A stretch of 64,000 nucleotides of DNA from Epinephelus fuscoguttatus (lineage: Eukaryota > Chordata > Actinopteri > Perciformes > Serranidae). Shown here piece by piece: positions 374 to 16,168 of this stretch; within the stretch, counting starts at the first letter, position 1, and the number at the start of each line of letters is the position of its first letter. The notes below the pieces were generated by a model that was given only the letters and a program-made list of their open reading frames with translations, searched no databases and had not been told where the DNA came from. The DNA is taken from NCBI RefSeq assembly GCF_011397635.1, contig NC_064758.1:18134513-18198512 (forward strand), given 5' to 3'. The position numbers were made by a program, and so were the translations under genes.

Positions 374-3300
374 CGGCTCAAAGTGCTGAATGTGCATCAC
401 GTCACCTATGACTCCAGCATCTATCAGCTCCTAGAAAAGAGAAGAAAAAGAAAAGGGGATAATCCTTGTTTGGACTTTGTGATTTTCTTCACCAGTCTGG
501 GTGATATAAAGTTTCTGTGTTCAGAAATCTAAACAATCAAACTATACTTTGCTCTCCTTGATAATTATCTGAATAAAACTTATATAATCAGGTACTCATA
601 TAGATGTCTTTAAACCCAAAACTGTGACTCATGCCTGGTAAAGAAAACTGTCAAGTGTTTTCATAAAGTGTGACAGAAAATGTTCACCTTAATCATGTGG
701 ATGAGAGGATCATACCGGAGAACATGGCCCACTGATAGTATCACTCCACTCTGAGTGCAAGCCTCCACAATCGCCTTGCAGTCTTCAGCAGTTGTCTTCA
801 GTCATGTGAGGACATTGGTGCACAAATGCAAGAGATGATTTTGTTTTTGTTCCGAAACTGACACAAAAAAGCATCTTTTGTCCGAAGTCTGAAATGTGCT
901 TTAAAGAAATACAATGTGAAATGTGATGAAAAAATGTAGTATTATGTGAGCATGATTTTTTTTTTTTTTTTGGAAAGGATAATTTGTAATAAAAATACAG
1001 AATTACACACTAACATTAAAAAACAATCTGTAGGATGATAACCCATATTACGAGTCTATGTTGAGATAATTTATGTTTATTAACAAAGCACTCACAGCCA
1101 TTGGTTTCTCCAGCAGAATATGGTAGCCTTTCTTTGCAAAGGCCACTGCAGGTTCCTGAGGAACAGAAACTAGTTTAAGAGAATGACAAGAAAAGGACTA
1201 TGACAAAGTTAAATAATTCAGACTGATAATGAGGTGTGTTCACAGAGCTAAACAGTAAATGTATATAAATATCTATAGTGTTTACCTTATGAAGGAGGTC
1301 TGGAGTACAAATTAACACTGCATCTGCAAACTTCACTCTTTCGATGACACTGGGCCAGTCTAGTTTGAAAAAAAAGCACATTTAGTATGCAAATATTAAC
1401 AGATATAAACATTTCAATGCATTTTTTTCCTTTTGATGTTCACCTTCAAATATGTTTTCATCTACAATGTTGTGCTCTCGTTGAAGTTTAGTGCGAGCAA
1501 ATTTCCTTGGATCAGCTACTCCAACAATCTAATGGGAAAGATGAGTTGAAGAAAGGCGCATAACAAGTGTTCTGTTAGAAAATAAATAGAAAAAATTAGG
1601 TTTTATATTTTTATTTTGATCATTTACTTAACGGTCCGGTGTGAAGGATTTAGGGCAGGCCAATTCAATTAGCGGCCCGCAGCCGTGGCACACAGGCCAC
1701 GTGCGGCCCAGAAGAAACCTCTGAGTGGTACTGAGACCTGTTATTAAACAGCCTGGGGCAAATTTAATCAAGACCGTAATAATTATAAGCTCCGATATTA
1801 TCAGGTCTTTTATCGTTAGTTTTTAAAGTTTTGGTTTCACGTATCATCATGAAGCAGTGTTCTTCATGCTTAGTTAACGTTACCTTTTTTTTTATTCAGT
1901 ATTGTGATGTCAGGAGTAATTTTAATTTTATTGACATGTAAGATTTGTTTCCAGTGAGATATTATTGAGTTTATATAGTGACTTTGTTGTTATAAACATG
2001 ACTGTTGCTGTCAAAGACTGTTTAAAACTGTATCCTGTGTATCTGACCTATAAGAAAAACATCTGGAAGTGAGGTGTGTGCATGTGTGTGTGTGGGAGGG
2101 AGAGGGAGATGCTGGTAGAGATAGAGTGTGTATAAATTAGATAGTAGGTTGCTCACTCCTGAAAATATGGCCCATCAACATTTTCTGGTTTTAAAATCTG
2201 GCCCAGTTGACTTTGTAATTAAATAGCCCTGATTTAGGGGGATATACTGGCAGAATTCAATATAATTCTCATAACTAGGTTGTACTAGTGTATAATCACC
2301 TGAAAATAAAAAATGTGGTGTTAATGTTACCTTACAATGAGCTGTTTATATCTACATATGGAGCAGGTCCTTTGTTTCTACAGTATTCCAGGGCGGACAA
2401 ACCAAACACTGGCTCTAGATTGGGCCATTTGTGTTTTCACGTCTGCAGTAGAGCTTAGATCGGGCCCAAAAAATCCAGCCCGACCCGGCCCAAGCCCGTG
2501 CACGTTATGTCCGGGACCGGCCCTGCCAGTCCAATTAACTGTAATTATGGGCCCGAGCCCGATTTAAGCCCGACATTTTTCAGTAAGTTGACTGTTATAA
2601 TTAAGAGTATTAAACCACAAGTCTTGTTATTTGAATGACAGAAAGATAGGATCTTAATGAACGGCGCAACACGGAAGCATGATTATGTAATAAAACAGGT
2701 GCTTATTTTAGGATCCAGGTGGTGAAGGGCTGTGCGCGCACAATGTTGCAGCATTGTAACTAAGTTTGTTGTAACTTTATGTGTCATACAAAGTGTGGTT
2801 TAATTTTATTTTTTATAATAGGCTACTGTAGCGTCCAGGACGTGTGGAAAGGATGACGTAGTTATTCGGCAATTAAACCACCGTTTTTTACTGAACAGTA
2901 CAGGTTACTGTTGGCCATAACCACGCCAAAACAACCAACAAACAACAACTTAGCTGTAACTCCATGTGTGCACTCCTGCTCTCTCCTCCAGCTCGCTCAT
3001 AGACACACCAGCACGCGCACTCACACAGCCCTCCTCATCCCCGTCACACTCGCACTAGAGGGCTGCATTGGGACTGGGTATGGCAAGCCATTTTAACATT
3101 TAATCGCTAGACTGGATATTCATTGCTGATATCTGCAACATAATTTTGCCTAGTCAAAACTCTTATTCAAGATATCTGTAATTAGATTTTGCCTAGTCAA
3201 AACTACAGTTACAGATATCTGTAATTCAGTTTTGACTAGTAAGATTCAAACTATTTTTGCCATTCATGTGTATGGGGTTTGTCATTATAGATATCTCCAA

Positions 3301-5333
3301 TGTAGTTGCGGATATCTACAATTGTTATTGCGGATATCTGCAACTGAATTGTGGATATCTGTAATTCCAGTTTGAGATATCTACAATTTAATTTTGACTA
3401 GTCATAATTCGAGTTCAAGACATCTTTAATTATCATCAATTGAAGATATCTACATGGTCCTTTCTAGATATCTTGAATTGAGTTTCAGATAGTCAAAATG
3501 ACGTTGTAGATATCTGCATCTGAATTATGACTGTAGTCAAAATGACGTTGTAGATATCTCAAACTGGAATTATAGATAGTCATAATGTAATTGTAGATAT
3601 CTATAATGACAAACCCCATACACATGAATGGCAAAAATAGTTTGAATCTTACTAGTCAAAACTGAATTACAGATATCTGTAACTGTAGTTTTGACTAGTC
3701 AAAATGACATTACAGATATCTGTAATTCAGTTTTGACTAGTCAGAATGACGTTACAGATATCTTAAATTAAAATTCATACTAGTCACAATGACATTACTA
3801 CTAGTCAAAATTACATTATAGATATCTATAATGGTAATTCCGGATAGTCGGACTTAGTAATTAAATGTTAAAACGGCTTGCCATAGACTGGGTCCCGCCG
3901 GGAATACTGCAGGAGCGGGCGGTTTGGACTTTGCTGCGGGCGGGAACGGGCGGCTAAAAAAACCACTGCGGGATCTTGGTGCACATGCATAAGCGTTTCC
4001 ACTCTATATTTATTCATAAATGGACGAATATGCCCTGAACCAGCTTTCACACCAATTTGCCGCTTGCTCCACCTGTCTGTCTGTGTGCAAGCTCCATCTG
4101 TGATGAGACAAACATGAAAGAAGACGTGCAGTTTATTGTGTTTCACCGGCGACAAGCTGTCATTACGAGCGACAATTACGCACGGCTGCGCGCTCTTTAT
4201 AACTCACTGTGAACCTATGTTGCATAGCTAATAAAGATTTGCCCCCTCTTAATTTTTAACCGCCCCCTCAGTAACTTCATCCTGGCGCCAGGCTTGCCTT
4301 AACCTCATTCACTGTGTGATTATATAAAGGTAGAAAAATAAATAAATACAGAGGAGGAGAATAGAATATGAAACAGCCTTTATTTCATTAAAAACTAAAT
4401 GAAAACAACGAAATAGGAGCGCTATTCTTGACCAGTGCGTCAAAAGACATGCAGGCCAGGGAAACGAAACAAACAACCCCATGAATCTCTTTATTAATAG
4501 CCTATAAAATGACGTGTTTTCTCCTGCGGGATGGGAGAAGACACAAAATCATCGATCTCTATTATTGTGCGGGCATAAATTCTCAGAGTTTTGCGGTGCG
4601 GGTGGGAGTGTAATACACATATTGCAGTTGCGGGCAGTAATGGTCAGAAATTCAGCGGGAGTGGGCAGGAGCGGGTTGAACAGTGCCGCGCAAGGCTCTA
4701 ACTCGCACCCCGCACCTCATTCAATCCCAAACATGCCATTAACTCACAGAACATTGACATTATAACAGAACAGCCGGGCCGAGCTCGGGCTTGGGCAGAG
4801 AATCTAAGCTCTAGTCTGCAGACATATCTCTCCTACTCGTTTGCCACACAGGAGAAGTTTCAGTTCTGCAGCCTCACCACTAGATGTCACTAAATTCAAC
4901 ACACTAAACCTTTAAATAAAGAAGCAATACATCAGGGAAAATACAAATAATACCACTCAAATCATAATAACAATAAGCATAATAATCATAATGAACCTAT
5001 ATTGTTGCAGGAAACATGGATTTGAGGATCTTCTTGTACTGTGACAAACTTTTCTATTATACTTTACATGTTTCTGTCATGAATATCTTGTCAGTGATCT
5101 CATCTGGGATCATTTAGCTCACAGGTTTTACTGTGGAAGAATATTGTTTATAGATACAGTAAATCAGCAACACAATCCACAAGAAATACGGAACTGTGTC
5201 CTTGATGACAAGTTCAGGCTGCAGAGCAACCTCTCCTGACCTTAACTCGTTCAGGGTGGATCCATGCAAACTGGGTTAAGCACTCCCCACGACAACCAGC
5301 ACCCACCACGATGAGACCGACAGGGGTCGTCAT
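374..5333 (-). CDS. Gfo/Idh/MocA-family oxidoreductase, tandem copy A (first six coding exons; 3' part off the left edge)
   Basis: This is a predicted NAD(P)-dependent sugar or cyclitol dehydrogenase-type enzyme; the substrate is unknown. Coding exons on the minus strand are 5241-5333, 1444-1528, 1286-1359, 1096-1155, 688-795 and 374-430. All have GT-AG borders and the phases join without error. Exon 1 starts MTTPV and carries the Rossmann GxGxxG loop as GAGCRG. Exon 4 ends with the EKP motif, whose lysine is catalytic in this family. Exon order and lengths equal those of copy B, so exon 7 onwards should lie left of position 1. Intron 1 is 3.7 kb because of nested transposons, against 0.5 kb in copy B. 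Exon 1 differs from copy B at 11 of 31 residues, while exon 6 is identical. The reading frame is intact throughout, so I see no sign of a pseudogene. The family call is firm; orthology is not. Confidence 0.85.
1656..2231. mobile_element. Non-autonomous hAT element with 8-bp target duplication
   Basis: The 576 bp element begins CAGGCCAATTCAATTA and ends with the imperfect inverted counterpart TTAATTA-x-ATAGCCCTG. It is flanked on both sides by the 8 bp ATTTAGGG (1648-1655 and 2232-2239), the duplication size typical of hAT transposases. Copy B shows the empty site, with one ATTTAGGG running straight into GGATATACTGG. No transposase reading frame is present. Confidence 0.8.
2449..4813. mobile_element. 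hAT-type element of 2365 bp, itself interrupted by a foldback element
   Basis: The termini are a perfect 12 bp inverted pair, TAGAGCTTAGAT at 2449-2460 and its complement at 4802-4813. The 8 bp GTCTGCAG flanks both sides (2441-2448 and 4814-4821). GC-rich sub-terminal stretches rich in GGCCC and GCCCG lie just inside each end. No transposase ORF of meaningful length exists, so it is non-autonomous. Removing the nested 807 bp element and its 7 bp duplication leaves about 1.55 kb. Copy B lacks it, so it arrived after the duplication or was lost from B. Confidence 0.8.
3079..3885. mobile_element. Foldback transposon built of alternating GATATC and TAGTCAAAA units
   Basis: The 807 bp element starts TATGGCAAGCC and ends GGCTTGCCATA; the inverted termini extend about 26 bp with one mismatch. 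Both sides carry the 7 bp GACTGGG (3072-3078 and 3886-3892). The interior holds about 17 GATATC palindromes and about a dozen TAGTCAAAA-like units, spaced every 25-45 bp. A long inverted repeat pairs roughly 3193-3298 with 3594-3700 and includes a shared ATGTGTATGGGGTTTGTCAT phrase. No protein is encoded. I do not recognise the family, and a 7 bp duplication is not diagnostic. Confidence 0.75.
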
Positions 5334-5843
5334 TTTGCCACCCTGTGAGCACAAATCAAAACTTGTAAACGCACCTTTTACAATGGCTGAAGTAAAACAC
5401 ACTAATTATTAGTCAGTCAGAGGTTGACGTCAGGGATGTCAGGGACATCATATACTTTATACTGTTACAGCTACCTGTTACAGATGGACTTGTCATGGAG
5501 ATGAAAGTCCACAGAGTTGACTCTAACTGAGGGACTCAATACTTTTATTTAACACACACAGTGCTCTGTTACAGACAGCTTCCCTATCTACACCAGACCA
5601 CACACACTATGTGTCACTCCACCCATCACACCTAATCTGGGTTATTATTCACAACATCTAGTTCTCCAGACAGAGATTATCCGTCATTTAAATTAACCAT
5701 TTAAAAACACCTGAATCCTTCCAAATATACTGAATAAGGATAATAACAGACACGGTATATGAAAGTATGTAGCTAGCTCATTAAAATACTGTCTCTGGTC
5801 AATAATATTTGTCAGTTAATGAATTGGTTGTTTGGCTCAGTAC

Positions 5844-6420: not shown

Positions 6421-7258
6421 ACAGCAAAAAAATCTCCAGGTGCACAATTTGACAGTGTCGAGTGACAAAATGCATCATTTCTATATCCACACTCATCAAA
6501 GTGTCGAGTGTCCTCAAATAGATTAGGCTTTATATTGTTTACATAATGTTGTTGACAGAATGGAGGGCTGTCTTTTTAAACCCCCTTCTTCCCCGCTGGC
6601 CACCTCTATTCATGTTTAATAGTGTCATAAACCTGTTTGTGACGAGTCTGTACACATAAACACAGAAAGGTTGGCAGTTGAATAGGGCTGGGAATCTCCA
6701 GGAACCTCACGATTCCTTTACGATTCAGAGGGCAGTGATTCTGATTATAAAACTTCTCTAAAGGGTTTTTTAAAAACCTTTGGAGCACCTTCGGTGAACC
6801 TTCAGGGATTGTTCTCTGAAGGTTCTCTGAAGGTTTTTTTTTCCTAAAAACCCTTGGACATGTAAAAAAAGGAAGTTTCTATTATTTATCCCCCAGATTC
6901 ATAAGAAAAAGAAAACAGACTGACCTGATGTTTACAGTCAATGCTGCTCCTTAGAGCTGCCATGAGCAGCTGCACACTGAGCCACCAGAAACAAGTCAGT
7001 GCTGAGCATTTCAATTTTCTGAAAGATACATTATACTGTATGATTTTTACATGATGTTAAGATTAATGTAATATGATGTAAAGCTTCAATGTAGTAGTCT
7101 CTCAACAAGAAATAACAGTGTGAGAGCTAATGGCATGTTTATGTTTATTGTATATTAGAGTGCATTTCTTCACAGCTAGTGGTACCTATAAATTCAATAC
7201 ATTTATTTTCAATATTTTAAGTATTGTCTCCATAGCTCAGTAGTGTAGCTCAGTTTCA

Positions 7259-9238
7259 TCCAAATCATCAACGTGTCTCTTAGACCCCATCCCAACTAGG
7301 CTACTTAAGGAGGTCTTACCTATAGTTAACACTCATATATTAGATATGATCAATATATCCTTATTAACAGGTTATGTACCACAGTCTTTTAAGGTAGCTG
7401 TAATTAAACCTCTACTAAAAAAGCCCACCCTGGATCCAGAGGTGTTAGCCAACTATAGACCAATATCTAATCTTCCCTTTATGTCAAAGATCCTTGAGAA
7501 AGTAGTCGCAGACCAGCTGTGTGATTTTCTCCAGGATAATAATTTATTTGAGGAATTTCAGTCAGGATTTAGAGTGCATCATAGCACTGAGACAGCTCTA
7601 GTTAAAATTACAAATGACCTTCTGATTGCTTCAGACAAAGGACTGCCTCTGTACTTGTTTTATTAGATCTTAGTGCGGCGCTTGACACAATTGACCATCA
7701 AATTCTGCTGCAGAGACTGGATCACTTAATTGGCTTAAAAGGTTCAGCACTAAGCTGGTTTAAATCTTATTTATCTGATCGCTTTTCAATTTGTTGACGT
7801 CATAATGAACCATCCTTACGTACTAAAGTTTGTTTTGGAGTTCCGCCAATCCTGTTTACTCTATATATGCTTCCGTTAGGTAACATCATTAGAAATCACT
7901 CTATAAATTTCCATTGTTATGCGGATGATACTCAGTTGTATTTATCAATGAAGCCAGAAGAAAGCAATCAATTAACTAAACTCCATAATTGCCTTAAAGA
8001 CATAAAAACTTGGATGAGCACCAATTTCCTGATGTTAAATTCAGACAAAACTGAAGTTATTGTTCTTGGCCCCAAACAACTCAGAGACTCTTTATCTGAT
8101 GACATAGTTTCTCTAGATGGCATTGCTCTGGCCCCTGCCACTACCGTAAGAAACCTCGGAGTAACATTTGATCAAGATTTGTCTTTAATTCTCATTTAAA
8201 GCAAACCTCACGGACTGCATTTTTTCATCTGCGTAATATTGCGAAAATTAGGCCTATCCTGACCAAAAGATGCAGAAAAATTGGTCCACACTTTTGTTAC
8301 CTCAAGGCTGGATTATTGTAACTCTCTATTATCAGGTAGCTCTAGTAAGTCCTTAAAAACTCTCCAGCTAATTCAGAATGCAGCAGCACGTGTACTAACA
8401 GGAACTAATAAACGCGATCATATCTCTCCTGTTTTAGCTTCTCTGCACTGTCTACCTGTAAAATCCAGAATTGAATTTAAAATCCTACTGTTAACTTATA
8501 AAGCTCTAAATGGTCAAGCTCCATCATATCTTAGAGAGCTCATAGTGCCATATTATCCCACCAGAACACTGCGCTCTGAGAACGCAGGGTTACTCGTGGT
8601 CCCTAAAGTCTCCAAAAGTAGATCAGGAGCCAGAGCCTTCAGCTATCAGGCTCCTCTCCTGTGGAATCATCTTCCTGTTACGGTCCGGGAGGCAGACACC
8701 GACTCCACATTTAAGACTAGACTTAAGACTTTCCTCTTTGATAAAGCTTATAGTTAGGGCTGGCTCAGGCTTGTCCTGTACCAGCCCTTAGTTAGGCTGA
8801 CTTAGGCCTAGTCTGCCGGAGGACCCCTCTATAATACACCGGGCCCCTTCTCTCCTTCTCTCTCTCTCTCTCTCTCTCGTATCCTATTACTGCATCTAGC
8901 TAACCCGGCCATGCTGGATGTCACTAACTCGGCTTCTTCTCCGGAGCCTTTGTGCTCCACTGTCTCTCAGATTAACTCATATCACAGCGGTGCCTGGACA
9001 GCGTGACGTGTGTGGTTGTGCTGCTGCCGTGGTCCCGCCAGATGCCTCCTGCTGCTGCTGCCATCATTAGTCATTAGTCATACTTCTTCTGTTATTATAC
9101 ACATATGATTATTGTCACACATGTATACTGCCAGGTATTAATACATACTTTCAACATATTGTACCGCAGTAACCAGAACTATAACTATAATATTATTACT
9201 TCCATTAATGTTGTTGTAAGATACTGTCATTACCTGAA

Positions 9239-9290
<52 letters not shown>

Positions 9291-9580
9291 ATTGTGTCAT
9301 GTGGATTACTGCTAATTTATCATGTTGATCTGTTCTGTACGACATCTATTGCACGTCTGTCCGTCCTGGAAGAGGGATCCCTCCTCAGTTGCTCTTCCTG
9401 AGGTTTCTACCGTTTTTTTTCCCCCGTTAAAGGGGTTTTTTTGGGGAGTTTTTCCTTATCCGCTGTGAGGGTCTTAAGGACAGAGGGATGTCGTATGCTG
9501 TAAAGCCCTGTGAGGCAAATTGTGATTTGTGATATTGGGCTTTATAAATAAAATTGATTGATTGATTGATTGATTGATAG
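7259..9580 (+). mobile_element. L2-clade LINE retrotransposon, 5'-truncated and frameshifted
   Basis: A reverse-transcriptase reading frame begins near 7259 ([10 protein letters not shown]) and runs through [20 protein letters not shown] and FQSGFR. After a frameshift near 7640 comes [16 protein letters not shown] stop follows near 7796, then the catalytic YADD box (7918-7929) and DLSLILI. The C-terminal region (8281-8757) reads [10 protein letters not shown] through LWNHLPVTVREADT. A long 3' UTR follows, with (CT)n tracts, a CCCCGTTAAAGGGG hairpin and an (ATTG)n tail at about 9550-9580. The N-terminal endonuclease is missing. It lies in the gap between the two oxidoreductase copies and cannot be active. 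Confidence 0.85.
9240..9286. repeat. (TC)n microsatellite in the LINE 3' UTR
   Basis: A near-perfect 47 bp TC dinucleotide run. A shorter one lies at about 8856-8878 in the same element. The related LINE at 10978-11676 has lost this segment. Confidence 0.9.
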
Positions 9581-10088: not shown

Positions 10089-10228
10089 CTAGCTCTGGCC
10101 AATGTCGCCACAGTACACCACCCTGCTCTCCAGCCGCGACCGCTCAGCTTCAAACACCAGCAAATGGCTCTGCAGTGTCTCCTCAGGACCTGAGCGGATC
10201 AGGGACGGATCGTTGTTCTGCACTCACA

Positions 10229-10267
<39 letters not shown>

Positions 10268-13200
10268 CTAATCAACCATCACAATCAGTGTTTCCAAATC
10301 TAGATATAAATTTAGTTTTAGTGCCTACTCCACATGTACAAGAATGCAAATTAAGTGAATATTCTTTATCTGTCCTAAATTTGGCCAAACAACTGCAAGG
10401 ACAGGTCAGCTGTCACTATAAGGTGAACTGTTCACACACAGCAACAACCAAATGAGTTGATTCTGGAGTGGGCAGAGGAGGAAAAGAAATCAGAAAACCA
10501 TACATTGACAAAACACATGTAAAAATATTATGTAGAAGCTCTCACCGCCACAGCAGAAATAAAAGCATCCATAAGATGGTAGTCTGCTCCACTATGTCCA
10601 TGAATGCCAAAGTGCTTAGGGGCATCATTGCGTGCCGTGTGCGTTGTGGATCTTTGGGTCAGAAAGTCAAACACACGGATTTCACGGCTGTCATATGACA
10701 GCTCCCCCTGCAAGGACACAGTTCATTATATAGCCAGTATTTAACAGATGCATCAGCTCTTAAAGGCTTACAGAACTTTAAGCTGTGTAATCACCTTAAA
10801 GTAACAAGTGTTGCTTCTAAATTGTGCCACACTAGATCAATAGCATATCAATATCAAGGTATACTCTATAGCCAGAAGTACTAACACCCTACATACTCTG
10901 TGTACTAATGGTCTGTGGCTGTGTTTCATGGTATGGACAAAGCTCCTTAGATTTATAAAAGAGAGCACTTAATGTAAATTAGGCCTATCCTGACCTGAAA
11001 AGATGCAGAAAAACTGGTCCACGCTTTTGTTACCTCAAGGCTGGATTACTGTAACTCTCTATTATCAGGTAGCTCTAATAAGTCCTTAAAAACTCTCCAG
11101 CTAATTCAGAATGCAGCAGCACGTGTACTGACAGGAACTAAGAAACGAGATCATATTTCTCCTGTTTTAGCTTCTCTGCACTGGCTCCCTGTAAAATCCA
11201 GAATTGAATTTAAAATCCTACTCTTAACTTATAAAGCTCTAAATGGTCAAGCTCCGTCATATCTTAGAGAGCTCATAGTGCCATGTTATCCTACCAGAAC
11301 ACTGCGCTCTGAGAATGCAGGGTTACTCGTGGTCCCTAAAGTCTCCAAAAGTACGGCATCTTCTCCGGAGCCTTTGTGCTCCACTGTCTCTCAGGTTAAA
11401 TCGTATTGCAGCGGTGCCTGGATAGCATGATGTGTGTGGTTGTGTTGCTGCTGTGGTCCTGCCAGATGCCTCCTGCTGCTACTGTTATCATTACTCATAC
11501 TTCTACTGTTATTACTGTCCCCCCCCCCCCTCCCCGTTAAAGGGGTTTTTTTGGGGGAGTTTTTCCTTATCCGCTGTGAGGGTACTAAGGACAGAGGGAT
11601 GTCGTATGCTGTAAAGCCCTGTGAGGCAAATTGTGATTTGTGATATTGGGCTTTATAAATAAAACTGATTGATTGAATGTTGCAGTGTACAGTAATATTT
11701 CAGGTGAGAGTGTGCTTCCCAAAGTTTTTCAGAGTGTCTGTTAGCTCCCCCCTTAGAGTAGTCACACTGCAGCTACTTAGCTATTTACACCCATCCCTTC
11801 AACACAATATTATGGATTCCATTGCATGCTGTGATTGGCTACTACTCGTCCTGTTGACGCATCCAGGCTGGAAGCAGTTAGGATTAAGGCAAAGAAGTCA
11901 TGGTTAGGGCTAATACTAGCCAATCTCAGATTTTCTCTGAGATTAAAGTGGAAAATTTACAAGAAAAAACATACAGATGTACTGCCAGTCAAGTGACATT
12001 GTTTAAAGAGCAACTTAGAACATGGTGGGTCAATGGGTCAAGCACAGGACTTTAACACAGGAGACTGGTGTCTGATTCTTGTGGGAATCAATGTTGGCAT
12101 ATTATTTTTAAATGTAGCTGACTTATTGTTTTCAATTTTTAGGATGTACAAAGCTGCTGCATGTACACTGTGTACATAGGCTTTAGCAGAATAATACCTG
12201 TTCATGTTAACGTCATATTTTGATGTTGCTAGGATGTCTATTTTGTCTTTTTTTCTAATTCCAGGCCTTATCACCCAACATCAGCGCTCAACCTCACTGA
12301 TACTTCTGTGGATGAAAGGAATCTAATCTCTGCAGACAGATTTCAAAATCTTGTGGAAAGCCTTCTCTGAAGAGTGGAGGCTTGCGTGTTATAGCAGTAT
12401 GTTAATGCTCGTGATTTTGGAATGATATCTTCAATTTCTTGGCATTTGCATTTATTTGTCTTTTCCTTCCTGCAACGCACATTCCTTCCAGTCCTACCTT
12501 GCTGCCATAGATGGTTGTTTTTCGGTTGCAAATCTCCTCAGTGAAAGCCACCATGGAAAAGGCTGCTGTCAGACCCCCTTCAAACTCCATGTTAACAACC
12601 TGGGCAAACAGAGCAGATAAGCTGTAGGGAAACACTGGAGAATCAGCAGCAGTCTGGACATATTAGCTGAAATGATCAGACTCTGTAGTTTATTTTGACC
12701 TAATGACTGATACATAGAAATGGTTTGATACTACCATGGATACTGGTGTATCCAAGTTATATTTAAGCAACAATAAAATTTGATGGGCTAGAGAGGCACT
12801 CAGCTTGTGGTGCTCAAAGCACCAAATAAATCTTAAAAATTCAACAGCAATGTCTCTTGCCAGAAATTATGACCCGGTACCTCAAGATAATTCACAGACC
12901 TTGTTGTGGGCAGTTAAACGTAGGAACTATTTTCTTTCTACTGAACTACACCCACCAACTGTATCACTGCACTGAACCCATCCCACTGAAGGAAAGAGGA
13001 ATTTAAGAGTTTTACTGAGCTAGCTAACGATACAAATCAGCTGAGGAGGAAGTGATTTATGTTTACATCTCATACTGTCACAAACACGAGTCTCTCATCC
13101 ATGAGTAGATGCACGCTTCTTATGCATGGTCATACGGTTGGTGGATGTAGTATGTATGAAGTATGGTTCCTACATGAAACTGCTCGCAACAAGGTCTGTG

Positions 13201-16168
13201 GATTATCTTGAGTAACCGGGTCATGATTTCTGTAGACGTTGTTGTGAGTTTTTCAAGTGTATTTTTGGTGCTTTGAGCTCCACAAGCTAAGTGCCATCTA
13301 GTTCCATTATACTGGAGACAAGGCAGACATCTTAACTGCCGATAAACGCACACCAAAACTATCTTAACTGATAAACAGCACTACAGGGAAGAGAAGAAAA
13401 ATATATATTTTTGATTTTGAGGTGAACTGTCGGTTTATAAAGCCAGTGTTTTCTAACCTGGTTACTGCAGACGTCATTGTCACACTCGTAGACACAGCGG
13501 CCATATGGTCCAGTCTTCAGGGCCTCAGTTACTGACTCGATGTCTGGGTCCGAGCTCTGGCAAATGACTGATACAGGCCAGCCAGTGTGACCCTAGCACA
13601 CATACAGCACATATGAAATCATGTACAGCAAGTAAAGTATTCATGTTCACAGAATCCATAATTGGTGAAACTATTATGTTGAAATATTAACCTGTTTTAC
13701 TCTATCCAGGTAGATTTTGCGTGCTGAGTAGGGACAGTCTTTTTCTATTGAACAATCCAGGCAGCGATCTCCAGCACCTGTTGGCTGACAAAAAAAAACG
13801 AGCAACGTCACTTTTATATTCATGCTTAGTATTTCTTTTTGCAAAAATGCAGAGAACTTTGATGGATGTAATACATCTTAATGACACAAAAATATAACTC
13901 AACAATGTTGAAAAGGATTAAAGTGCTGTAATGTTATGTGCTGTTTCTCAAAAAATTTATAGATCTACAATAAAGTCATGATTTCTTTGTATTAGGCCTC
14001 ATACGGTGAAGAGTTCACAGACCTTGTGTTTTTTTCTGAAGTGGTTTACAGATCCAAATGATGACACTTTCAAACACCTGCTGAGCACAAAGTTAATGAT
14101 TCATCTTAGGCAAAACAGGACGACCTCACAGAAAACAACCTCGCCCACGTGAAAACAGAGACTGTGGTCCAACAAATGTGTTAAGTGTATATACTTCTGA
14201 ACATCAGCTGAGCTGTTGGGTGATATTAAGAGCAGAGTTTTACCTGCGTGCTCCAGCCCAGTGATGTATTAGGTCGATGTCGTGGCACGATTTAGCCAAA
14301 AGAGAAAACGAGCTCTCTGCTTCATTCCTCCAGTTCCCTCGAACAAATGAGTGAGCAAAGTGATAAAACCCAACCTGCAACAAGAGGTTGACAAGACAAG
14401 TCGGTAATCTGTTACAGTAATGCCTTGAATTAAAAACAAAAAAGTGTTTAAAGCAGGAATACTGTTACTGATGGATGTGTGAGTTTAATGAGGAGCCCTG
14501 AGGGTTTGCAGCATTACTGTCTTTATTTCTATTCTGTTGACATTTTTACCGGCTCAAAGTGCTGAATGTGCATCACATCACCTATGACTCCAGCATCTAT
14601 CAGCTCCTAGAAAAGAATAAGAAAAAAAAAGAGGTAGAAATCCATATTTGGACTTTGTGATTCTCTTTATCAGTCTGCGTGAGAAAAAGTTTCTTTGACA
14701 TGTTTAATTTATAAGTATCCATACAGACGTCTTTAAACCCAAAACTGTGACTCATGCCTGGTAAAGAAAACTGTCAAGTGTTTCATGAAGTGTGACAGAA
14801 AATGTTCACCTTAATCATGTGGATGAGAGGATCATACCGGAGAACATGGCCCACTGATAGCATCACTCCACTCTGAGTGCAAGCCTCCACAATTGTTCTG
14901 CAGTCTTCAGCAGTTGTCTTCAGTCATGTGAGGACATTGGTGAGCAAGGAAGGCATGAGTGTCACACAAATGCAATCATGGAAAGGAAAAGACAGAGGTG
15001 GTTTTGTATTTCAGAAACTGACACAAACTAGCAAAAAAAGAAATTAAGAATTACAAACTAACATGAAAGATAGTTTATGTTTATTAACAAAGCACTCACA
15101 GCCATTGGTTTCTCCAGCAGAATATGGTAGCCTTTCTGTGCAAAGGCCACTGCAGGTTCCTGAGGAACAGAAACTAGTTTAAGAGAATGACAAGAAAAGG
15201 ACTATGACAAAGTTAAATAATTCAGACTGATAATGAGGTGTGTTCACAGAGCTAAACAGTAAATGTATATAAATATCTATAGTGTTTACCTTATGAAGGC
15301 GGTCTGGAGTACAAATTAACACTGCATCTGCAAACTTCTCTCTTTTGATGACACTGGGCCAGTCTAGTTTGAAAAAAGCACATTTAATAATTTAGTATGA
15401 GGCAAATATTGACAGATATAAACACTTTAATGCATTTTTTCCTTTTGATTTTCACCTTCAAATATGTTTTCATCTACAACTTTGTGTTGCTGTTGAAGTT
15501 TAGTGCGAGCAAATTTCCTTGGATCAGCTACTCCAACAACCTAATGGGGAAGATGAGTTGAAGAAAGGTGCATAACAAGTGTTCATAACAAGTAGAAAAA
15601 AGTATTCAGATCATTTACTTAAAGGTCCAGTGTGAAAGATTTAGGGGGATATACTGGCAGAATTTGATACAATATTCCTATCTTTTTTACTATGTTCTGC
15701 AGTCTCACCACTAGATGTTGCTAAATTCACCACACTAGACCTTTAAGTAAATAAGCAATGCATCAGGGAAAAATATGAGTAAAACCACTAAAATAATAAT
15801 GATAATAAAAAGCATAATAATCAAAATGAACCTATATTGTTGCAGGAAACATGGATTTGATGATCTTCTTGTACTGTGACAAACTTTTCTATTGTACTTT
15901 ACATCTTTCTGTCATGAATATCTTGTCAGTGATCTCATCTGGGATCATTTAGCTCACAGGTTTTACGGTGGAAGAATATTGTTTATAGATACAGTAAATC
16001 AGCAACACAATCCACAAAAAATACGGAACTGTGTCCTTGATGACAAGTTCAGGCTGCAGAGCAACCTCTCCTGACCTTAACTCGTTCAGGGTGGATCGAT
16101 GCATAGTGGGAGTAGTTATCCCCTCGATTGCCAGCTCCTATCACGATGACACGGACAGGGGTCGTCAT
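10089..16168 (-). CDS. Gfo/Idh/MocA-family oxidoreductase, tandem copy B (complete, 427 aa)
   Basis: Thirteen coding exons, all GT-AG and in phase: 16076-16168, 15456-15540, 15290-15363, 15100-15159, 14810-14917, 14550-14606, 14244-14374, 14023-14077, 13692-13784, 13458-13592, 12498-12599, 10546-10707, 10089-10217. The protein has an N-terminal Rossmann fold (GAGNRG, residues 11-16), the EKP motif (residues 100-102) and a D-x-x-H catalytic region (HDIDLIHHW, about 190-198). The C-terminal half has a cysteine cluster, C229-x2-C232-x5-C238, that bacterial StrI/YteT-like members also carry. No signal peptide is seen, so it is probably cytosolic. It should oxidise a sugar or polyol with NAD(P); the substrate is unknown. 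Mammals keep GFOD1, GFOD2 and DHDH from this superfamily, and this protein looks like none of them. The 55 nt exon 14023-14077 is easy to miss but is required by phase. Confidence 0.9.
10232..10265. repeat. (AC)n tract next to the last splice acceptor of copy B
   Basis: On the coding (minus) strand this reads (TG)n and ends about 14 nt before the acceptor AG of the final exon (10217). It therefore occupies the place of the polypyrimidine tract. Confidence 0.85.
10978..11676 (+). mobile_element. Second L2-clade LINE fragment, internally deleted
   Basis: It matches the LINE at 7259-9580 closely, starting at TTAGGCCTATCCTGACC and running through [10 protein letters not shown] and [11 protein letters not shown]. 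It then jumps at about 11355 over roughly 310 bp present in the first copy and resumes in the 3' UTR. A further segment holding the (TC)n run is also missing, replaced by a C-rich stretch at 11519-11530. It ends with GATTGATTGA. It lies in intron 11 of copy B in antisense orientation. Confidence 0.85.
12014..12110 (+). repeat. Possible tRNA-derived SINE head
   Basis: GGTGGGTCAATGGGTCAAGC could be a worn A-box region, and a GTCTGATTCTTGTGGG about 30 bp on resembles a worn B box (consensus GGTTCGATTCC). A T-rich body follows. The arms do not fold into a functional tRNA by eye. The call is weak. Confidence 0.3.
12782..13316. mobile_element. Palindromic (foldback) element in intron 10 of copy B
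   Basis: The left arm (about 12782-12960) contains GCTTGTGGTGCTCAAAGCACC and TATGACCCGGTACCTCAAG. The right arm (about 13130-13316) carries the reverse complement of the same phrases in mirrored order. Arms of about 170 bp enclose a central segment of about 170 bp. No coding capacity is seen. It is not in the partial copy A sequence available. Confidence 0.65.
15613..15754. repeat. Short MITE (TTAAAGGTCC family) in intron 1 of copy B
   Basis: The inverted ends ATTTACTTAAAGGTCCAGTG and CTAGACCTTTAAGTAAAT are nearly perfect. The element is an internally deleted relative of the split element at 1622-4920, at the orthologous intron position, and still has the uninterrupted hAT target site. Confidence 0.75.

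Follow-up and report, generated by a model that had tools for sequence, protein, structure and literature searches.

Divergence of coding exon 1 within a mosaic tandem pair of oxidoreductase genes in Epinephelus fuscoguttatus

The 64-kb stretch of DNA analysed here (the window) carries on its minus strand two tandem copies, A and B, of one sugar-oxidoreductase-like gene, and coding exon 1 of the two copies differs far more than their other coding exons and the adjoining part of intron 1. The explanation that we lean towards is that gene conversion acted in patches and spared exon 1, which would be an island of old divergence that has evolved fast in copy A; less certainly, conversion over the island may be selected against. 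The contrast with the neighbouring intron lies within a mosaic of two levels of divergence along the whole duplicated unit.

Each copy has 13 coding exons that together make 1284 nt with the stop codon, corresponding to 427 residues without an internal stop, and GT/AG boundaries were read by eye at all 12 coding introns per copy, 24 in total. The source assembly comprises 1.05 Gb in 26 contigs, of which contig C7 carries the window. The NAD-binding domain PF01408 is matched at 71 bits by copy A and 84.4 bits by copy B (curated cut-off, 24), and both copies pass the cut-offs of the C-terminal domains PF02894 and PF22725. They share the motifs GAGxRG, in the dinucleotide loop, and LLEKP; the loop glycines and the EKP motif are presumably marks of GFO/IDH/MocA oxidoreductases. 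By domain membership, the two predicted proteins are GFO/IDH/MocA-type oxidoreductases, and when copy B alone was scanned against NCBIfam, none of the curated cut-offs was reached. Sequence matches in the PDB are distant relatives of the same NAD-binding family, such as YjhC (6o15) and inositol dehydrogenases. The prokaryotic matches, 68 loci scattered among Thorarchaeota, Ktedonobacteria, planctomycetes, and others, range from about 50–55% identity for the best full-length ones to 33% for the weakest. The relevant features are given below in window coordinates.

5241–5333, minus strand: copy A coding exon 1, 31 codons, with a divergent island at about 5260–5324 (18 of 65 sites)
5361–5720, minus strand: divergent stretch upstream of copy A exon 1 (24 of 170 aligned sites differ)
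4981–5259, minus strand: low-divergence tract covering the end of copy A exon 1 and the start of intron 1 (6 of 279 sites differ from copy B)
374–1528, minus strand: copy A coding exons 2–6 (1444–1528, 1286–1359, 1096–1155, 688–795, and 374–430)
1461–1483, minus strand: second short coding island, in copy A exon 2 (6 of 23 sites differ)
1156–1285, minus strand: copy A intron 3, identical to copy B 15160–15289 over 130 bp
Outside the window, in the flanking sequence past its start, minus strand: copy A exons 7–13
10089–16168, minus strand: copy B coding span, with exons 2–13 within 10089–15540
16076–16168, minus strand: copy B coding exon 1, nearer to the profile of the prokaryotic relatives
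15456–15540, 15290–15363, 15100–15159, 14810–14917, 14550–14606, and 14244–14374, minus strand: copy B coding exons 2–7
14023–14077, 13692–13784, 13458–13592, 12498–12599, 10546–10707, and 10089–10217, minus strand: copy B coding exons 8–13

All 59 gap events in the alignment of the two units fall among the 3736 aligned non-coding sites; the 1284 coding bases contain none, an outcome with a chance of about 2e-9 at the non-coding gap rate. Both copies are therefore apparently constrained, judging from their intact frames without coding gaps; this evidence is strong but not final, because conversion could spread intact sequence between the copies. The open frame, the GT/AG splice sites, and the absence of coding gaps rule out copy A as a plain pseudogene. 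The copies also differ by large insertions. Copy B carries an element at about 7247–9577, downstream of the gene and reverse-transcriptase-like by eye, which is absent from copy A, as is a fragment at 10976–11679 in intron 11, three pieces of which match that element at 87–97%. Intron 1 of copy A contains an insertion of about 2.6 kb (about 2276–4889) absent from copy B, with GATATC-rich repeats at about 3120–3860. The insertions specific to copy B suggest independent loci rather than haplotypes.

Exon 1 of copy A and that of copy B differ at 18 of 93 sites, all inside the 56 bp from 5318 to 5263, and 11 of the 31 residues are changed, including the loop itself (GAGCRG in copy A, GAGNRG in copy B). 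These counts had been proposed in a sequence-only reading of the window, together with about five differences in the adjacent part of intron 1 and complete identity of intron 3; our recount agrees throughout, with 5 differences in the 250 bp adjoining exon 1 and 130 of 130 bp alike in intron 3. The divergence of exon 1 is much higher than that of the adjoining 250 bp of intron 1 (Fisher P = 1.7e-7) and of the other coding exons (37 of 1191 sites; P = 9.7e-9), and the clustering of 18 differences in 56 bp of coding sequence compares with a mean of 6.7 and a maximum of 12 in 2000 shuffles. The same reading placed exon 1 inside near-identical flanks, which is correct on the intron 1 side but fails on the 5′ side, where 7 of the 60 bases upstream of the ATG and 11 of 105 aligned sites in 5334–5603 differ. 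Its statement that coding sequence has changed faster than the introns is likewise true locally but not over the aligned unit, in which 55 of 1284 coding and 231 of 3736 non-coding sites differ. Among non-overlapping 56-site windows, two intron windows hold 17 differences, both touching gaps, and an ungapped window near the downstream end of the unit holds 16.

A gap-aware alignment of both units gave 286 differences at 5020 aligned sites, and these are distributed in a clear mosaic. A two-state model, in which about 70% of the aligned sites differ at 1.3% and about 30% at 16%, has a log-likelihood of −985.6 compared to −1097.1 for one rate. A three-state model reaches −979.3 with rates of 1.1%, 8.9%, and 27.8%, the highest state including the core of exon 1 along with numerous, mostly non-coding, short stretches. 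In ungapped non-coding sequence of the high state, 132 of 786 sites (16.8%) differ. At the other extreme, the copies are identical, with gaps ignored, over two runs spanning 319 and 272 aligned sites, whereas 1000 shuffles gave no run longer than 227; just 29 and 37 of these sites are coding. From the mosaic and the over-long runs we infer that the runs are gene-conversion tracts. Introns other than those putatively converted are old in whole or part. Recent duplication combined with only local hypermutation is ruled out, since the non-coding sequence itself has two divergence levels.

The exon 1 island sits 36 bp from the divergent 5′ flank, with the putative converted tract on its intron side. 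The sequence-only reading compared exon 1 with introns that were probably converted. The alternative offered at the time, a short conversion tract from another paralogue, is partly borne out in that conversion appears to be involved, but mainly in the opposite sense, the neighbourhood being homogenised, and no donor of exon 1 was found in the assembly. Besides the exon 2 island, a further short one was observed in copy A exon 12 (window coordinates about −2565 to −2597), where 7 of 33 sites differ beside an otherwise near-identical stretch.

Taken over its full length, exon 1 diverges by 19.4%, which is ordinary when set against the old-state rate (P = 0.29). Nor is its densest stretch unusual: within 919 old-state sites, 18 differences would be expected to fall in some 56-bp window with P = 0.26. 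Selection is therefore not required to explain the rate. In exon 1, dN is 0.244 and dS 0.167, a ratio of about 1.5; the core codons 6–24 give 0.453 and 0.295, and the other exons 0.029 and 0.043, with dN/dS about 0.8 over the whole gene. In the 19 codons of the core, 3.5 synonymous differences at 14.3 sites compare with 11 at 265.3 elsewhere (P = 0.004 rounded up, 0.03 rounded down), and the core value is compatible with the rate of old ungapped non-coding sequence. Since the synonymous sites of the core are raised too, the data suggest a tract older than its surroundings rather than selection on replacements alone.

The proposal of diversifying selection on exon 1 is neither shown nor excluded by these data. 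The dN/dS of exon 1 is about 1.5, but the ratio of non-synonymous to synonymous counts, 14.5:3.5 in exon 1 and 26:11 in the other exons, draws no distinction between them (Fisher P = 0.75, rounded counts). Core replacements, at 14 of 43 sites (rounded), lie above the 16.8% of old sequence with P = 0.009, post hoc and uncorrected; over all of exon 1, 14 of 70 gives P = 0.28. Transitions outnumber transversions by 86:46 where old non-coding sequence is ungapped and by 27:10 across the remaining coding exons, but exon 1 reverses this at 5:13 (P = 0.004 and P = 0.003, respectively; both tests post hoc and uncorrected). This transversion excess separates exon 1 from ordinary old-state sequence. The replacement excess in the core, the richness in transversions, and the concentration of changes on copy A would count in favour of selection, all of them picked after the fact.

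The polarity of the changes was taken from the prokaryotic relatives, a distant outgroup whose full-length matches reach about 55% identity at most. Residue counts and profile scoring used 63 of the 68 prokaryotic loci, and branch lengths and bootstraps used 60 of those 63 together with A and B, on a tree derived from the remaining exons. In exon 1, the branch lengths are 0.567 for copy A and 0.025 for copy B, compared to 0.048 and 0.012 in the other exons. The copy A branch in exon 1 exceeds that of copy B in 60 of 60 bootstraps, and none of 60 samples of 28 other columns reaches 0.567. With this prokaryotic polarity, nearly all exon 1 replacements are shown to fall on copy A. The residues kept there include G11, G13, and G16 (63 of 63 relatives) and R15 (62 of 63), and three synonymous changes lie at G11, G13, and R15. 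At residue 19, by contrast, 59 of 63 relatives have tyrosine and copy A has leucine. Copy A has also lost R217 (arginine in 35 of 63 relatives, lysine in 18) and has cysteine at codon 284 in exon 10, where copy B and 58 of 63 relatives have arginine. The loss of Y19, R284, and R217 from copy A could reflect relaxation. Copy A agrees with the relatives better than copy B does at 3 of 4 changed residues of the exon 2 island; the exon 12 island leans to copy A in the same way, but weakly, and just outside it a glycine at residue 370, found in 53 of 63 relatives, is lost from copy B. Some of the remaining sites favour copy A and most favour copy B. Scored on the profile of the relatives, copy A falls short of copy B by about 20 bits in exon 1 and by about 16 bits over the remaining exons.

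The explanation that we consider somewhat probable begins with an old tandem duplicate pair of a GFO/IDH/MocA-type oxidoreductase, in which repeated interlocus gene conversion would have homogenised about 70% of the aligned unit, as suggested by the mosaic and the over-long identical runs. The exon 1 core would have been missed by the last conversions and would retain its old divergence because they did not cover it. Judged by the prokaryotic outgroups, nearly all replacements within the strand-loop-helix of the dinucleotide-binding domain occurred in copy A, where the loop glycines and arginine were kept. Less certainly, the island may persist as conversion over it is selected against, copy A having an altered N-terminal helix; selection would then keep it as at the exon 5 peak of the primate red/green opsins. 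Several observations speak against this explanation: the rate of exon 1 is ordinary for old-state sequence, a divergent 5′ flank lies 36 bp away and keeps the island from standing as a peak of its own, the residues lost from copy A could reflect relaxation, the transversion excess is unlike ordinary old-state sequence, and the polarity depends on distant prokaryotes. That copy A is a distinct enzyme is a doubtful extension: positive selection would have remodelled the loop residue and first helix of the dinucleotide-binding site (C14, E17, C18, L19, and W24) while the core glycines were kept, and selection would block conversion from copy B over exon 1 while much of the gene is still homogenised.

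The same mosaic could also have arisen with no selection for difference, the exon 1 island being a chance remnant and copy A being under relaxed constraint. The ordinary rate of exon 1 for old-state sequence, the whole-gene dN/dS, and the lower profile scores of copy A in exon 1 and elsewhere are consistent with this possibility; we regard it as unlikely, as the 1284-base frame of copy A has neither gaps nor stops, its core loop residues are intact, and its exon 1 branch is about 12 times as long as the one it has in the remaining exons. An import of the exon 1 core into copy A from a third, more divergent paralogue, possibly lost or missing from the assembly, would fit the odd transition:transversion ratio and the crowding of changes within codons (of 10 codons with at least two differences in the whole coding sequence, 4 are in exon 1, compared to 2.2 expected). 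However, dN is not below dS, unlike in a constrained paralogue, and the searches of the assembly argue against a donor. Exon 1 DNA and both exon 1 proteins returned A and B alone from the 1.05-Gb assembly among the best candidates, which were those scored, and the full protein gave, on the same basis, 26 matches, all within copy A or B, and no third copy. A PF01408 family search found six places besides the pair, which match exon 1 at chance level (E 0.15 or weaker); this is a weak control, as the search missed A and B themselves and can miss genes split into short exons. Such an import is accordingly improbable. By eye, we take the six places to resemble dihydrodiol dehydrogenase and GFOD relatives. 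On contig C2 (16810200–16817311), two PF01408 matches lie about 6.6 kb apart and may be another tandem pair, from a different subfamily.

It is very improbable that much of the cluster arose at once from a few complex mutations, such as template switching or a compensating pair of a short insertion and a short deletion. A shift of TAAC by five bases would explain 6 of the 18 differences with two gaps (by eye), but this leaves 12 differences elsewhere unaccounted for. There is no signal of template switching from the surrounding 1.5 kb, where the longest match to the core is 8 bases; 200 shuffled cores average 8.0 and reach at most 12. In the search for a donor, a 24-base piece occurred, within the window, in copy A alone.

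A divergent coding island amid twins homogenised by conversion is a kind of pattern already known. Human and macaque red/green (L/M) opsins are reported to show a divergence peak at exon 5 (PMC3924837), conversions in gibbon opsins are described as mostly within introns (PMC3213168), and islands of divergence are reported between the enzyme paralogues GOT1p1 and GOT1p2 of Tigriopus californicus (PMC3728101). As the L/M opsins are described (PMC3924837), they and the present pair are tandem duplicates, conversion-homogenised, with low-divergence introns and a short high-divergence coding stretch containing replacements. They differ in that the colour difference is attributed largely to the opsin replacements, whereas copies A and B are known from sequence alone, and in that the flanking introns of the opsin exon are reported as low (PMC3924837), whereas one flank alone is near-identical here. 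The GOT1p1/GOT1p2 pair is similar to copies A and B in combining enzyme paralogues with divergence islands amid conversion-homogenised sequence; unlike them, it is described as intronless, with population data and a low Ka/Ks (PMC3728101), compared to dN/dS of about 0.8 over the gene here. A keyword search of the fish literature gave, judging by the titles listed among its loose matches, no paper on this gene. It is plausible that copies A and B are a further member of the cases in which a divergence peak stands under conversion.

If selection keeps the island, it would mark the residues that separate the two enzymes and would provide a compact case of new function under gene conversion in a cofactor-binding site. 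If the island is not selected, the pair is a caution that comparing one exon with a freshly converted intron can make ordinary old divergence look like a hotspot.
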